From Clostridiaceae bacterium (lineage in GTDB: Bacteria; Bacillota; Clostridia; CAYPLH01; DUMO01): a DNA stretch of 44,067 bases. Position 1 is the first letter of the stretch; the number at the start of each line of letters is the position of its first letter. Of this stretch, positions 15,743 to 21,075 are shown in pieces. The notes beneath the pieces are model-generated. The model was not told the origin of the DNA and did not search any database. It was given only the letters and a program-made list of their open reading frames with translations. The stretch spans positions 1 through 44,067 of the forward strand of contig DUMO01000070.1 of the NCBI GenBank assembly GCA_012839865.1, given 5' to 3'. The position numbers were made by a program, and so were the translations under genes.

Positions 15743-16516
15743 TTATATATACTTGCGCATATGGGCCAGTGCAGTCTTTTCCAGCCTGGAAACCTGGGCC
15801 TGGGAAATTCCTATTTCTTCAGCTACCTCCATCTGTGTTCTTCCCTGAAAGAATCTTAAATTCAAAATCAGTTTTTCCCTGTCGTTAAGTTTCCGCATTG
15901 CTTCCTTCAATGCAATCCCTTCCAGCCAGTTTTCATCCTTGTTCTTATCGTCGCTTACCTGGTCCATAACATATATGGCATCTCCCCCGTCGTGGTATAC
16001 GGATTCAAACAGGGAAACAGGATCCTGGATGGCATCCAGGGCAAAGACAACCTCCTCCTTTGGCAGGTTGAGCTCTTTGGCAATTTCAGAAATGGTAGGT
16101 TCCTTTGAGTTCAAATTTGTCAGCCGCTCCTTGGCCTGAAGGGCTTTGTATGCAATGTCTCTTAAAGAACGGCTTACACGGATGGAGTTGTTGTCCCTTA
16201 AATACCTTCTTATTTCGCCAATTATCATTGGTACCGCATAGGTGGAAAATTTAACATTATGTGAAGTATCAAAATTATCAATCGCTTTAATTAAACCAAT
16301 ACAACCTACTTGAAACAGGTCGTCCACGTATTCTCCTCTATTGTTGAATCTTTGAATTACACTCAATACAAGGCGCAGATTGCCCTTAATGAATTCTTCC
16401 CTCGCCGAGTCATCACCTTTATGAATTCTTTCAAACAATTTCATTTTTTCTTCATTGCTTAAAACCGGCAGTTTGGCAGTATTAACACCGCATATTTCAA
16501 CTTTATTTACCAGCAT
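15743..16516 (-). CDS. sigG: RNA polymerase sporulation sigma factor sigma-G (late forespore)
   Basis: This 257-aa sigma-70 family protein directs late forespore transcription. It carries the sigma-G N-terminus (NKVEICGVNTAKLPVLSNEE), region 2 (GNLRLVLSVIQRFNNRGEYVD, then DLFQVGCIGLIKAIDNFD and FSTYAVPMIIGEIRRYLRDN), region 3 and region 4 (LNDREKLILNLRFFQGRTQ, with EVAEEIGISQAQVSRLEK). ATG 16516 has GGGAGG with 7-base spacing. It follows sigE by 187 bases, room for its own sigma-G-dependent promoter, though I saw no convincing match. In Bacillus it is also read through from the spoIIG promoter. Confidence 0.97.
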   Translation of the reverse strand: MLVNKVEICGVNTAKLPVLSNEEKMKLFERIHKGDDSAREEFIKGNLRLVLSVIQRFNNRGEYVDDLFQVGCIGLIKAIDNFDTSHNVKFSTYAVPMIIGEIRRYLRDNNSIRVSRSLRDIAYKALQAKERLTNLNSKEPTISEIAKELNLPKEEVVFALDAIQDPVSLFESVYHDGGDAIYVMDQVSDDKNKDENWLEGIALKEAMRKLNDREKLILNLRFFQGRTQMEVAEEIGISQAQVSRLEKTALAHMRKYI

Positions 16517-16648: not shown

Positions 16649-16722
16649 TTTTCAGGCACTTTTGTTTTAAACCGTTATGCTGATTTTTTCAGGCACTTTT
16701 GTTTTACACCATTCTGCTGATT
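16649..16722 (-). repeat. 37-bp tandem duplication covering the 3' end of sigE
   Basis: The 37-base segments 16649-16685 and 16686-16722 match at 34 of 37 positions. The second copy contains the last codons and stop of sigE. The first lies just downstream in the sigE-sigG gap. Confidence 0.85.
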
Positions 16723-17441
16723 TCCTTTCGAAGCCTGCTGATAATTCTCTTCTCAAGCCTGGAAATATATGATTGAGATATTCCCAGCATGTCTGCAACT
16801 TCCTTCTGGGTCTTTTCTTCTCCGTTGTTGCAAAGGCCAAATCGGAGCTCCATTATTTTTTTCTCCCGGTTTGAGAGCTTTTTCATCGCAATTTCAAGGA
16901 GTTCCTTATCCACCTCATCTTCAATGCTTCTATATATAAGGTCATTGTCCGTTCCTAAGATGTCAGAGAGTAAAAGTTCGTTCCCATCCCAATCAATATT
17001 CAGGGGTTCATCTATTGAAATTTCATTTTTCAGCCGGTTATTTCTCCTAAGATACATAAGTATCTCATTTTCAATGCAGCGTGAGGCATAAGTGGCAAGT
17101 TTGATATTCTTGGCCGGATTAAATGTATTTATTGCTTTTATAAGTCCGATGGTGCCAATTGATATCAAATCTTCAACGCCAACGCCGGTATTTTCAAATT
17201 TTCTGGCTATATAAACCACAAGCCGGAGATTTCTTTCAATCAGTACTTTTTTTACGCCAAATTCATTTCTCCCCAGCTTATCCAAAAGATATGCCTCTTC
17301 TTCATTGCTGAGGGGCGGCGGCAGGGCTTCACTTCCGCCAATATAGTCTATATGGGTCCTGGGTAGTTTTCCGAACCTTTTTAAGATATTAAGGTATTTT
17401 ACCCGTATCATTAATCTTATTTTTTTTAAAAAAATTTTCAT
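16704..17441 (-). CDS. sigE: RNA polymerase sporulation sigma factor sigma-E precursor (early mother cell)
   Basis: This is pro-sigma-E, 245 aa. It starts at ATG 17441 with AAGGAG 8 bases upstream; a longer frame to 17474 lacks an RBS. The first ~30 residues ([20 protein letters not shown]...) are the basic, hydrophobic pro-sequence that holds the factor at the membrane. The cleavage region is [18 protein letters not shown], as in Bacillus. Region 2 follows ([20 protein letters not shown], with [19 protein letters not shown] and [17 protein letters not shown]), then region 4 ([15 protein letters not shown], with [18 protein letters not shown]). SpoIIGA, encoded upstream, is the expected processing protease. 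Confidence 0.97.
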
Positions 17442-17549
17442 AAACCTGTCTCCTTCCGTTGTTACAGTAAACAATCCGGTGTTTTTTTGCCTTATGCTGT
17501 TTTCCGGTTTTTCCTGCCTGTAAATCAGCCCGCTGTCCCCGGCCTTAGG

Positions 17550-17711
17550 TTAAATCACATGCCTTCTTCCCATACAACCCCTTTGTATCTTCCGGTAAAC
17601 CATCTGCAATATAAAATATTGCATGTTTTCTTCTCATGCAGCCTTGTGCAACTTTTCGAAAATTATCTGCCATTTTCCCCTGCAAAATATTGCATGCCGG
17701 CTTATCATGCA
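17550..17711 (-). repeat. Degenerate ~65-71 bp tandem repeats between spoIIGA and sigE
   Basis: Three related blocks are read on the minus strand at about 17711-17680, 17640-17604 and 17577-17552. Each begins with TGYATGRKAAG-like sequence followed by CATG; the first two then share GCAATATTTT and a GCAG. Downstream parts (GGCAGATAATTTTCG against TGCAGATGGTTTACC) also align. The first copy overlaps the spoIIGA stop codon. They occupy most of the 263-base gap before sigE. The open frame through them (17545-17727) has no RBS. Confidence 0.55.
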
Positions 17712-18604
17712 ACCAGGTCAGGGCCAAGAAGCGCTTTATACTTCTCGTCTTTTGAAAGGTTCTTATTGTATATTCCGACTACTACATCCTTCACCCCCTT
17801 TTCATCCTTATTCCTTCCAATTACTATATAATCAGGCTTAAATCCAATCAACATGCCGTTTTCCTTCCCGATGGAATTGAAAGGAATAAGTCTGAATCTT
17901 TTATACCATTTGGATCCTGCTACAATAGAGGTGACAGAGCCTAAATCGTTTTCTTTCGCTGAAATGAAAATTTCTTTTATTTCTTCCGGCAGTATAGGCG
18001 CAATTGCACTGAATTCCACTATAACCACCGGCATATTGGTCAAAGGATCATGCAGAAAATTTCCGGTGTCCACCAGGGCGGACAAATCAATTACCCGGTT
18101 CTCAAAGGCAATTTTTATAGGTACAAAAAGCTCTTCCCTCACAAATTTATATTGAATGATCTCCCAGAATATCCTGGTAATAATTGCCACTGTAATTATC
18201 GATAAAACAACTATCGACCATTTTGAGCCTGTAAAAACATAAAATACTCCGCTTTTGACAAAACCGCTTGTATTGTTGAAATATATAAAGGCAAATGCCG
18301 CTCCGGCAAATATAAACGTGGATATATAGAAAACCGCAAGTATTTTAAGGAACCTGACAGGTTTTTCGGGAGCAAAGGTTACTGCAATTATCAATAATGA
18401 AAGTATAACCTTTGCAAAAGTTGTATAATATAACCTTATGTCAGGAAACAATACCAGAACAACTACATATAATGCTCCTATAAGGGCTCCTGAAAACAAC
18501 CGGAGGTTGGATGCCCTGCATTTTGAAAACTTTGATGTTAGCAAAAGTATAAAGTAGTTGATAACCAGATTTTCCAGAAAAAGAACATCTAAATAAACCT
18601 CCAA
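17705..18604 (-). CDS. spoIIGA: Sporulation sigma-E factor-processing peptidase SpoIIGA
   Basis: This membrane aspartic protease cleaves pro-sigma-E in the mother cell after a signal from the forespore. The ~299-aa protein has an N-terminal half of about five TM helices (EVYLDVLFLENLVINYFILL, LFSGALIGALYVVVLVLF, ILAVFYISTFIFAGAAFAF and others). The cytoplasmic half carries the catalytic DTG motif in LSALVDTGNFLHDPLT. I favour a TTG start at 18604 (EVYLDVLFLEN...), with GGGGG about 6 bases upstream. The in-frame ATG at 18640 has no Shine-Dalgarno, and family members usually begin close to this helix. It is the first gene of the spoIIGA-sigE unit. Confidence 0.93.
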   Translation of the reverse strand: MEVYLDVLFLENLVINYFILLLTSKFSKCRASNLRLFSGALIGALYVVVLVLFPDIRLYYTTFAKVILSLLIIAVTFAPEKPVRFLKILAVFYISTFIFAGAAFAFIYFNNTSGFVKSGVFYVFTGSKWSIVVLSIITVAIITRIFWEIIQYKFVREELFVPIKIAFENRVIDLSALVDTGNFLHDPLTNMPVVIVEFSAIAPILPEEIKEIFISAKENDLGSVTSIVAGSKWYKRFRLIPFNSIGKENGMLIGFKPDYIVIGRNKDEKGVKDVVVGIYNKNLSKDEKYKALLGPDLVA

Positions 18605-18673
18605 AACAATCCCCCGCAATAAAAGGCACTTCCTCAACATTACATATATTCATATGCATGCATGTTTATGTTT

Positions 18674-18706
18674 ATTATAAAGCATGTCACCTGAAAAATT
18701 TGTCAA
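18674..18706 (-). promoter_or_regulatory. spoIIG-type promoter with an overlong spacer (Spo0A-dependent type)
   Basis: On the minus strand a perfect TTGACA (18701-18706) and a perfect TATAAT (18674-18679) are separated by 21 bases. An overlong spacer of this kind (22 bases) is the hallmark of the Bacillus subtilis spoIIG promoter, which sigma-A polymerase uses only with Spo0A~P. A TGTCAGAA 0A-box-like sequence lies upstream near 18730. Confidence 0.6.
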
Positions 18707-18778
18707 ACCAAAAGAGTTGAAAATAAAAGATTCTGACAAAAAACATGTTGTTGATAAATAATAAATGAAATGTATATT

Positions 18779-19996
18779 CTACAATATTTCATGCAGCCTT
18801 GCAGAAGTAGTTACAATAGCTTTGCTTTTCAATTCATTATATAAAGTAAGGGCTTTGCCTTCGGTGTAATCCCGGATTTCCGGCGGTTCATCCTCTATTA
18901 TGACAAGCCTTTTTGCATTGAGGGCTGCTTCAAGGTTTTTAATATTGCTGTTTCCAAAGGGCATATTGGATATTATGGTAAATTCACTTTCTTTGATTAA
19001 TGCGACATTACTTTGGTATATTTCTTCTGATATTTCACAGAAGGGATCGCATTTTATGCATTTTATCCCAAAAACTTCGGCAAATCTCAAATCACTGTCA
19101 CCGCTCCACAAAACGCCCGATGATATTGTATAACCCCTTTCAAACAAATAACGCATTACTCCCGATGCAGAACCGCCACCACCTATTACATGCACCGTAC
19201 CCTTTTTTTCACCATTTCTTTTGCTGATATAAAAATCCATTTGCCCGGTAATACTGTTCCTATATATAATGGCATTGACCCCGTAAGCCGATTTCAGGTT
19301 TTCCGCCGTAAGCACCTCTGCTGGCTTTCCATCAGCCAGTATTATGCCATCCTTCATGAGTATCAGCCGGTTGCAGTACCTTGCGGCAATTTTCAGGTCA
19401 TGAACTGCTGCAATTACTGTTTTTCCATTGCCGGAAAGTTCCCGGGCATAATCGAATATCTGCTCCTGATATGCAATGTCAAGGCTTGCTGTCGGCTCAT
19501 CCAGCAAAATTATTCCGGTTTCCTGGGTCAGGGTTTTTGCAAACAAAACCCTCTGTCTTTCACCGCCCGAAACATTGGTTATCTTTCTTTCGGAAAGCTC
19601 CAGTGTTTCAGTCAGTTTCATATACCTTCTTGCTATTTCATAATCTTCCAGGCTTTCACCCTTCAGTCTTCCGTTGTGGGGGTACCTGCCCATTAAGACA
19701 ACATCAATAACCTGAAATGGAAATGTAATTAAAGTATCCTGATGCATTAGGGATATTTCCCTTGCTATTTTTCTTCCGTCAAGTTTTGAAATCTCACAGC
19801 CTTTAACTTTAATGGAGCCCTCTGCTTTGTTTATTCCGTTTATACACTTTAAAAGGGTCGATTTGCCTGCGCCATTTGGACCTATCAAGCCGATGAATTC
19901 GCCCTTTTCAACCTTCAAGTCAATATTCTTCAGTATTTTCCTCTCATCTATGGAAAAGGACAAACCTTTTATTTCAAGAACCATTCTTTCACCCAT
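18779..19996 (-). CDS. btuD: Corrinoid/Fe-complex ABC transporter ATPase with an unusual C-terminal extension
   Basis: Residues 1 to about 255 form a BtuD/FecE-type ATPase: Walker A GPNGAGKST, signature NVSGGERQRV, Walker B GIILLDEPTA and switch His in AAVHDLK. Residues about 270-405 are an added domain absent from short BtuD proteins. It opens with a nucleotide-binding-like Gly-rich turn (VHVIGGGGSASGVMRYLFE), has a Cys cluster (IKCIKCDPFCEIS) and ends ARLHEIL. I infer a Rossmann-like regulatory or corrinoid-related domain. It is not CbiZ by the motifs I can see. ATG 19996 overlaps the btuC stop (TGATG), indicating translational coupling. The cobalamin riboswitch upstream of btuF assigns the operon to corrinoids. 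Confidence 0.88.
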   Translation of the reverse strand: MGERMVLEIKGLSFSIDERKILKNIDLKVEKGEFIGLIGPNGAGKSTLLKCINGINKAEGSIKVKGCEISKLDGRKIAREISLMHQDTLITFPFQVIDVVLMGRYPHNGRLKGESLEDYEIARRYMKLTETLELSERKITNVSGGERQRVLFAKTLTQETGIILLDEPTASLDIAYQEQIFDYARELSGNGKTVIAAVHDLKIAARYCNRLILMKDGIILADGKPAEVLTAENLKSAYGVNAIIYRNSITGQMDFYISKRNGEKKGTVHVIGGGGSASGVMRYLFERGYTISSGVLWSGDSDLRFAEVFGIKCIKCDPFCEISEEIYQSNVALIKESEFTIISNMPFGNSNIKNLEAALNAKRLVIIEDEPPEIRDYTEGKALTLYNELKSKAIVTTSARLHEIL

Positions 19997-21075
19997 CAAA
20001 GCAGATTGCCCCCTTTTCGCGCCATAATCAGAAGATAAAGAAAATAGGGGGCTCCCACAAGGGAAGTTATGATTCCTGCATTTACCTCAACAGGGAACAT
20101 TACCCTTCCAATAATATCGCAAAGAATAAGGAATACTGATCCCCCGAAAAAACTTGCGGGTAAAAGAACCCTGTGATCCGGTCCCAGTATAAGCCGCATT
20201 ATATGGGGTACAATCAACCCTACAAAACTGATGTTGCCGCCTACACTGATGGCTGAAGCCGTTGCAGCGGATGCAAGAAAAAGAAGCCCTCTTCTTGCTT
20301 TTACAGGGTCGAGGCCAAGGGATTGGGCTTCTTCCTCCCCAAGAAGCAAAATATTCAGGTCCTTGCTGAAGAACATCATTATCAGAACACATATAATAAC
20401 CGGTAAAGCTATCAGCTTTACATGTTCCCATCTTCTGTCATTCAATCCCCCAATGGACCAAAAAAGGAACTCCTTGATTTGATTCTGCTGATGAAGGGAC
20501 ATCAATATCATTGAAGTAACGGATGAAATGAATGTACCCACCGCTATGCCAGCCAATACAAGCGTCAGAACAGGAACCTTTTTATCCCGGGCTGCCAGAA
20601 GGTATATGACCAGAGCGGTAATTGCGGCGCCAAAAGCAGCCAGTACCGGCATAAAGTAAAGGCTTTTCACCGTTAATCCCAGGGCAACGGCAGTTACCGC
20701 ACCAAGGCTTGCACCACTTGACACGCCTATAAGCCCAGGGTCTGCCATGGGATTTCTGAACATCCCCTGCATGGCGGTACCTGAAGCAGCCAATGCACCT
20801 CCCACTAAAACTGCTGTTATTACCCTTGGGAATCTTACATTGAAAATAATGGCTTCGTGCCCGTAACTAAACTCAATGTTTTTCAATAATCCCCACTTTT
20901 TAAGAATTATTCTTACAGTATCGGAAAAAGGTATATACACGTCCCCCACCGCTGTTGCAACTACAACGGAAGCTGCGAGCAGCAAAAGCATTACCGGCAG
21001 TATGCTCATCAATTTTTTACCTTGGGTCTCGGCATTACGATTATTTTTTTCTGCTGAGGAAAGATTCCTGTTCAT
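19996..21075 (-). CDS. btuC: Corrinoid ABC transporter permease BtuC
   Basis: This 359-aa FecCD/BtuC-family permease forms a homodimeric membrane channel with about ten TM helices. Recognisable stretches are DVYIPFSDTVRII, RFPRVITAVLVGGALAASGTA with MQGMFRNPMADPGLIGVSSGASLGA, VLAGIAVGTFISS, and the C-terminal GNISFVGLIVPHIMR with GPDHRVLLPAS, which includes the ATPase-coupling region. ATG 21075 follows GGGTGG with 7-base spacing. It is 75 bases downstream of btuF and overlaps btuD, so all three are one operon. The sequence alone cannot separate cobalamin from siderophore or haem transport; the riboswitch decides it. Confidence 0.93.
   Translation of the reverse strand: MNRNLSSAEKNNRNAETQGKKLMSILPVMLLLLAASVVVATAVGDVYIPFSDTVRIILKKWGLLKNIEFSYGHEAIIFNVRFPRVITAVLVGGALAASGTAMQGMFRNPMADPGLIGVSSGASLGAVTAVALGLTVKSLYFMPVLAAFGAAITALVIYLLAARDKKVPVLTLVLAGIAVGTFISSVTSMILMSLHQQNQIKEFLFWSIGGLNDRRWEHVKLIALPVIICVLIMMFFSKDLNILLLGEEEAQSLGLDPVKARRGLLFLASAATASAISVGGNISFVGLIVPHIMRLILGPDHRVLLPASFFGGSVFLILCDIIGRVMFPVEVNAGIITSLVGAPYFLYLLIMARKGGNLL

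Follow-up and report, generated by a model that had tools for sequence, protein, structure and literature searches.

A likely Spo0A-dependent promoter of the spoIIGA-sigE operon in a clostridial genome, with a displaced −35-like hexamer that is most plausibly a reversed 0A box

Analysis of the region upstream of spoIIGA in a 44,067-nt stretch of a Clostridiaceae bacterium genome (contig DUMO01000070.1; this whole stretch is called the window, and coordinates refer to it) revealed what is very probably a Spo0A~P-dependent σA-type promoter of the spoIIGA-sigE operon, in which the seemingly perfect −35 element would be mainly a Spo0A site. The hexamer TTGACA, read directly from the sequence at 18706-18701, and TATAAT at 18679-18674, which matches the σA −10 consensus, both lie on the minus strand and are separated by a 21-nt spacer (18680-18700, minus strand), in agreement with the original prediction. 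TTGACA is enclosed by a reversed 0A box, TTTGACAAA (18699-18707, minus strand), assigned on its conservation and as the exact reverse complement of TTTGTCAAA. Facing this box, an upstream 0A box, TTTGTCAGA, is located at 18740-18732 (minus strand), with its TGTC starting 32 nt before the hexamer; the 0A-like stretch at this place was also read as TTTGTCAGAA (18740-18731, minus strand). The spacer starts with AATTTTT (T run at 18694-18698), which resembles a stretch conserved in relatives, the remaining spacer not being conserved. Transcription is predicted to start near 18667, about 7 nt below the −10 hexamer.

An ABC-transporter ATPase gene (18779-19999) and spoIIGA flank the promoter, which is followed, on the minus strand, by spoIIGA (17705-18640), sigE, encoding the sporulation sigma factor SigE (16704-17474), and sigG, encoding the sporulation sigma factor SigG (15743-16516). 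The earlier assignment of spoIIGA was borne out by a match to TIGR02854 (242 bits vs a cut-off of 210), and the two sigma factor genes were identified by curated models above cut-off. The ABC ATPase has 406 residues, and its best model, PRK09536 (corrinoid transporter ATPase), scored 334 bits, below the cut-off of 537. Since the SpoIIGA profile match leaves out the beginning of the longest frame and sets in at residue 15, the true start of SpoIIGA is probably the TTG at 18604-18602, behind GGGGGA (18615-18610), and not the ATG at 18640; a start at this TTG would put about 60 nt of leader between the predicted transcription start and the gene. A palindromic run, ATGCATGCAT, was found within the predicted leader, at positions 18640-18668 of the window.

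All the sequence features of a Spo0A~P-activated σA promoter of the spoIIG and spoIIE type were found for this site: its location, the −10 hexamer, the displaced hexamer, the overlapping and upstream 0A boxes, and genes for Spo0A and SigA in the same genome, the Spo0A match reaching 407 bits with a DNA-binding domain that aligns with 1fc3 and 1lq1 (E ~1e-53). The hexamers lie 21 nt apart, and not 16-18 nt as in an ordinary σA promoter. Between 18800 and 18604 on the minus strand, no −35/−10 pair above 9 of 12 was present at 15-19 nt, and the two σH patterns tried gave no σH-like site upstream of spoIIGA. The missing −35 at 16-18 nt was dropped as independent evidence, since the reversed box and the T run fill that stretch and the occupation by the box explains part of the absence.

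Judging the site by match counts was likewise rejected. The window holds nine hexamer pairs with up to two mismatches (8.06 expected) and 45 0A-like sites with up to one mismatch (43.25 expected), both at chance level, and its only exact TTGACA-N21-TATAAT pair is the one at spoIIG. In the whole genome two exact 21-nt pairs were found, as in the backward control; the second of them, which has a further TATAAT at a distance of 16 nt, was set aside as an ordinary promoter. Perfect hexamer pairs 12-26 nt apart numbered 79 in the genome, 29 of them at 17 nt, as in ordinary promoters. As exact pairs equal the control and pairs in the window match expectation, the site does not stand out by number; its significance comes from where it lies and from how well it is conserved.

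The family and order of the genome under study hold no other genome, so the class was used for comparison. The sample consisted of 200 distinct regions upstream of spoIIGA, 74 from public genomes and 126 from the same class, our own included. Six of the 80 public loci, which lacked a spoIIGA start, were left out (L021, L026, L032, L046, L050 and L054), as were three class genomes in which the upstream stretch or start was missing or the frame was broken (G092, G118 and G239); two extra copies of the locus in the window and four duplicates were also removed. The class loci were drawn, approximately by score, from 130 of the 211 genomes with a match, our own among them, a choice that favours high-scoring SpoIIGA matches. 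Four loci cut to 67-155 nt (L014, L045, L060 and L107) were scored as misses.

The arrangement NNGACA-N21-TATAAT, with at most one mismatch in the −10 hexamer, was present in 134 of these 200 regions, where dinucleotide shuffles predict 1.85, and the same rule gave a single region at 20 nt and seven at 22 nt. With the first part relaxed to NN[GT]ACA, a 21-nt pair was found in 166 of the 200 regions, compared with 4, 10, 3, 4, 11 and 5 at 17, 18, 19, 20, 22 and 23 nt, respectively. The conservation of hexamers and spacing expected by the original prediction was thus observed. The 21-nt pair occurs in 101 of 126 class loci (35 of 41 families, leaving six with no such locus) and in 65 of 74 public loci; relatives are not independent, and one-vote-per-family tallies correct for relatedness only in part. 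Among the genera showing it are Ruminiclostridium (R. hungatei), Alkaliphilus, Sporomusa and Paenibacillus. Under the NN[GT]ACA rule 34 regions lack the 21-nt pair, four of them being truncated and nine having 22 nt.

Spacings of 22 nt instead of 21 were seen in several families (L090, L091, L053, L185, L196, L200 and the two Bacillus loci L080 and L082), so that the change by one base has probably occurred repeatedly. A further observation concerns eight mostly Pelotomaculum-like loci (L030, L033, L035, L036, L037, L048, L053 and L078), which carry a second pair about 79-99 nt before spoIIGA, below the 21/22-nt pair. In it, TTGTCA or CTGTCA (in one case TTGTAA, in another TTGTTA) precedes a TATAAT-like hexamer by 20 nt, and it may represent another start that has a 0A-like box in forward orientation. 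One of these loci, L048, comes from a record titled Deltaproteobacteria bacterium that has sigE-spoIIGA, possibly on a misbinned contig.

The same geometry was found at a second sporulation gene. A search of our own genome with the pattern derived from spoIIG gave no mismatch at spoIIG and at one site in the spo0A region, and one mismatch at two further sites, one of which lies ahead of spoIIE (ATGACA-N21-TATAAT, with 172 nt between the end of the −10 hexamer and the spoIIE model match). Matches with up to three mismatches numbered 416 vs 500 in the backward control, so only the best matches are informative. The zero-mismatch site in the spo0A region (C53:90795) was rejected as a third promoter of this kind: it is oriented away from spo0A, and part of it is the beginning of a TGTCGAA box directed towards this gene. 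The other one-mismatch site (C66:61599) falls within the reading frame of an ABC transporter and was taken as chance. In the spo0A region (contig C53; L214:1390-1660), spoIVB adjoins spo0A, and the TGTCGAA box lies about 100 nt upstream, facing spo0A.

For spoIIE, 71 of 261 regions were sampled, comprising the 30 best-scoring ones, 40 chosen for family spread and our own genome. The 21-nt NN[GT]ACA/TATAAT pair was present in 59 of the 71 regions, and each other spacing between 14 and 27 nt in 0 to 5 of them; 34 of 43 families have the pair, which leaves 12 regions and nine families without any such locus. The pattern came from spoIIG alone, and the spoIIE result is therefore not built in.

Conservation extends to the box facing the hexamer. 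A TGTC starting 33 or 32 nt before the hexamer was found in 34 of 163 spoIIG and 37 of 58 spoIIE loci (14 of 35 and 22 of 34 families, respectively) vs 0.58 and 0.36 per position at any other place, and is absent from 129 of the 163 spoIIG loci. The upstream 0A-like site of the original prediction therefore stands at a favoured distance, −32 being enriched among relatives. In our own genome the spoIIG and spoIIE promoters both have TGTC at −32, and they were the only ones with this upstream box among 29 pattern matches examined (all four with up to one mismatch and 25 of the 37 with two; one locus at a contig end was left out). The spoIIE promoters thus resemble those of spoIIG in both spacing and facing box, and differ in keeping the box more often and in having A after GACA in 83% vs 44% of loci (weighted). 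A reversed GACA at −31/−30 was observed in 19 of 163 spoIIG loci, many of them from Paenibacillus, and in no spoIIE locus. A C stands at −6, 10 nt above that of the box, in 67% of spoIIG (137 loci) and 77% of spoIIE sites (29 loci), both weighted, and would fit a weak second box in tandem; the window lacks such a box, with T and not C at −6.

To what extent the hexamer is a −35 element or a 0A box was judged from its variable positions. Several selection rules had ACA built in, and complete conservation of ACA under them is by construction; the fair tests are therefore a scan in which all six positions count alike (at least four of six matching TTGACA) and a comparison of one-mismatch hexamers. 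The scan matched 173 of 200 spoIIG regions at 21 nt, other spacings giving 23 to 51, and 63 of 71 spoIIE regions. Mismatches at positions 1 to 6 numbered 80, 64, 34, 4, 4 and 0 in the 173 spoIIG loci and 39, 13, 3, 1, 3 and 0 in spoIIE. Among hexamers with a single mismatch, the corresponding values were 47, 20, 14, 1, 2 and 0 for 84 spoIIG sites and 32, 6, 1, 0, 0 and 0 for 39 spoIIE sites, vs 3, 0, 13, 5, 13 and 10 for 44 ordinary −35 hexamers of 17-nt promoters in our own genome, hand-counted among the 100 matches listed of 1053, a part of which are due to chance (627 in the backward control). The mismatch hence falls within TT in 67 of 84 spoIIG and 38 of 39 spoIIE sites vs 3 of the 44 ordinary hexamers among the matches listed (Fisher p = 3e-16 and 6e-19, respectively). 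Counting each family once gives 14 of 20 for spoIIG (p = 4e-7) and 21 of 22 for spoIIE (p = 5e-13), against the same ordinary set among the matches listed.

Other features point in the same direction. The exact TTGACA is found in only 40 of 166 spoIIG and 14 of 59 spoIIE sites; the original argument from two perfect hexamers is thus not supported as worded, since relatives keep the first of them in the form of a reversed 0A box and not of a −35. A pyrimidine occupies position 2 in 98% of spoIIG and 95% of spoIIE sites, family-voted, and the flanks fit the reversed 0A consensus, the spoIIG sites often having T before and nA after (tnYGACAnA). In C. difficile, Spo0A requires G2, C4 and G5 of TGTCGAA (PMC3485338), and these fall on hexamer positions 5, 3 and 2. 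TTGACA is thus best understood as a −35 look-alike that is conserved mainly for its role in a reversed 0A box. Since T at position 1 exceeds background (53% in spoIIG and 45% in spoIIE, family-voted, vs ~33%), the hexamer could retain some −35 role. In this genome, sigma could also contact it before Spo0A arrives.

We propose that σA RNA polymerase would hold the −10 hexamer while sigma region 4 would find no proper −35. Spo0A~P on the reversed box would then sit against region 4 and fix its position some 4 bp below the hexamer, a displacement that would turn the 21-nt gap into an effective 17 nt if the value reported for B. subtilis applies, and the facing upstream box may load or steady Spo0A. 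The operon would therefore be off until Spo0A~P is high. The activator dependence originally predicted from the spacing is accordingly kept as the likeliest reading of the site. A different account, in line with the original prediction, gives the hexamer a double role, TTGACA being a true −35 that is bound first and from which Spo0A~P shifts region 4 by 4 bp. The perfect TTGACA of this site, the exact hexamers in some relatives and the excess of T at position 1 agree with it, and so does work in B. subtilis by Kumar and Moran in 2008, in which a tethered nuclease reportedly placed sigma region 4 on the −35-like element before Spo0A acts and from which a 4-bp displacement is said to follow. The variable TT and fixed ACA of the relatives are, however, the opposite of what ordinary −35 hexamers of this genome show among the matches listed, and common homologous hexamers are ATGACA, TAGACA, ACGACA, GCGACA and TCTACA; we therefore regard this account as possible but rather doubtful. 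A bolder form of the preferred reading, to which we give about even chances, holds that across Bacillota the "−35" of spoIIG and spoIIE is no sigma element at all. A rigid composite operator (facing TGTC at −33/−32, reversed GACA, exactly 21 nt, TATAAT) would make Spo0A~P the sole dock for region 4. If so, polymerase pre-binding and "repositioning" would be a lineage-specific extra where the 0A box happens to read TTGACA.

Two further explanations were considered. Transcription of the operon from an ordinary σA or σH promoter at another place, the hexamer pair being a coincidence, would suit the chance-level number of perfect 21-nt pairs in the genome, but the search of 18800-18604 with the patterns used left no candidate, the 21-nt spacing is kept in most relatives, and the promoter mapped before spoIIGA in C. 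difficile has hexamers of the same kind (PMC3789822); we consider it very improbable. Good hexamers with a long spacer between them are also what would be expected of a MerR-type promoter, where an activator inside the spacer twists the −35 and −10 elements into register. Spacers of MerR promoters are nevertheless 19-20 nt long, not 21, and in the spoIIG alignment only the box-proximal part is conserved, positions 13-24 holding at most 0.15 bits each, which argues that no operator is kept inside the spacer; we regard this explanation as the least probable.

Among the closest known systems is spoIIG of B. subtilis, where the spacer is 22 nt, a 0A box overlaps a −35-like hexamer too far from the −10, and the upstream Spo0A site is more distant. 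The site in the window shares with it the operon, the σA −10 and the 0A box over a displaced −35-like hexamer, and differs in its 21-nt spacer and in having the facing box as close as 32 nt to the hexamer. The resemblance to a Bacillus promoter that was originally noted is supported by the Bacillus loci of our sample, with 22 nt (L080 and L082), and by a Siminovitchia locus (L073) with 21 nt.

In the literature, spoIIGA is described as a σA and Spo0A target (PMC3416734, PMC3789822) and B. subtilis spoIIE as being under σA and Spo0A control (PMC3416734), and Spo0A~P is stated to act at B. subtilis spoIIG after closed-complex formation (earlier work cited in PMC12090719). For C. difficile, published work describes a mapped σA promoter with GTGACA and TATAAT before spoIIGA, a 240-fold decrease of sigE expression in a spo0A mutant (PMC3789822), and low-affinity but specific in vitro binding of the Spo0A DNA-binding domain to spoIIGA and spoIIE DNA (PMC3485338). 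The promoter in the window is thus like that of C. difficile in its −10 hexamer, and unlike it in reading TTGACA in place of GTGACA.

Spo0A~P-activated σA promoters of spoIIG and spoIIE are already known, and the site described here adds a member. In the open-licence literature, outside which most subscription journals lie, we found no report of a near-invariant 21-nt spacing over many families, of a facing box at −33/−32 common to spoIIG and spoIIE, or of evidence that selection holds the hexamer mainly as a 0A box. What is new, as judged from sequence comparison, is the tight 21-nt geometry together with the facing box. The two accounts of the hexamer make different predictions: a repositioning model predicts that TT matters, and under the 0A reading nothing but the spacing and the GACA core should count. 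The 0A-box geometry also offers a frame for the methylation site at C. difficile spoIIE, which overlaps in part with a Spo0A motif predicted close to the −35 (PMC13395437). The spoIIG and spoIIE promoters are among those by which Spo0A commits the cell to sporulation, and the near-invariant 21-nt geometry provides a simple rule by which Spo0A-activated σA promoters can be sought and tested in unculturable species.
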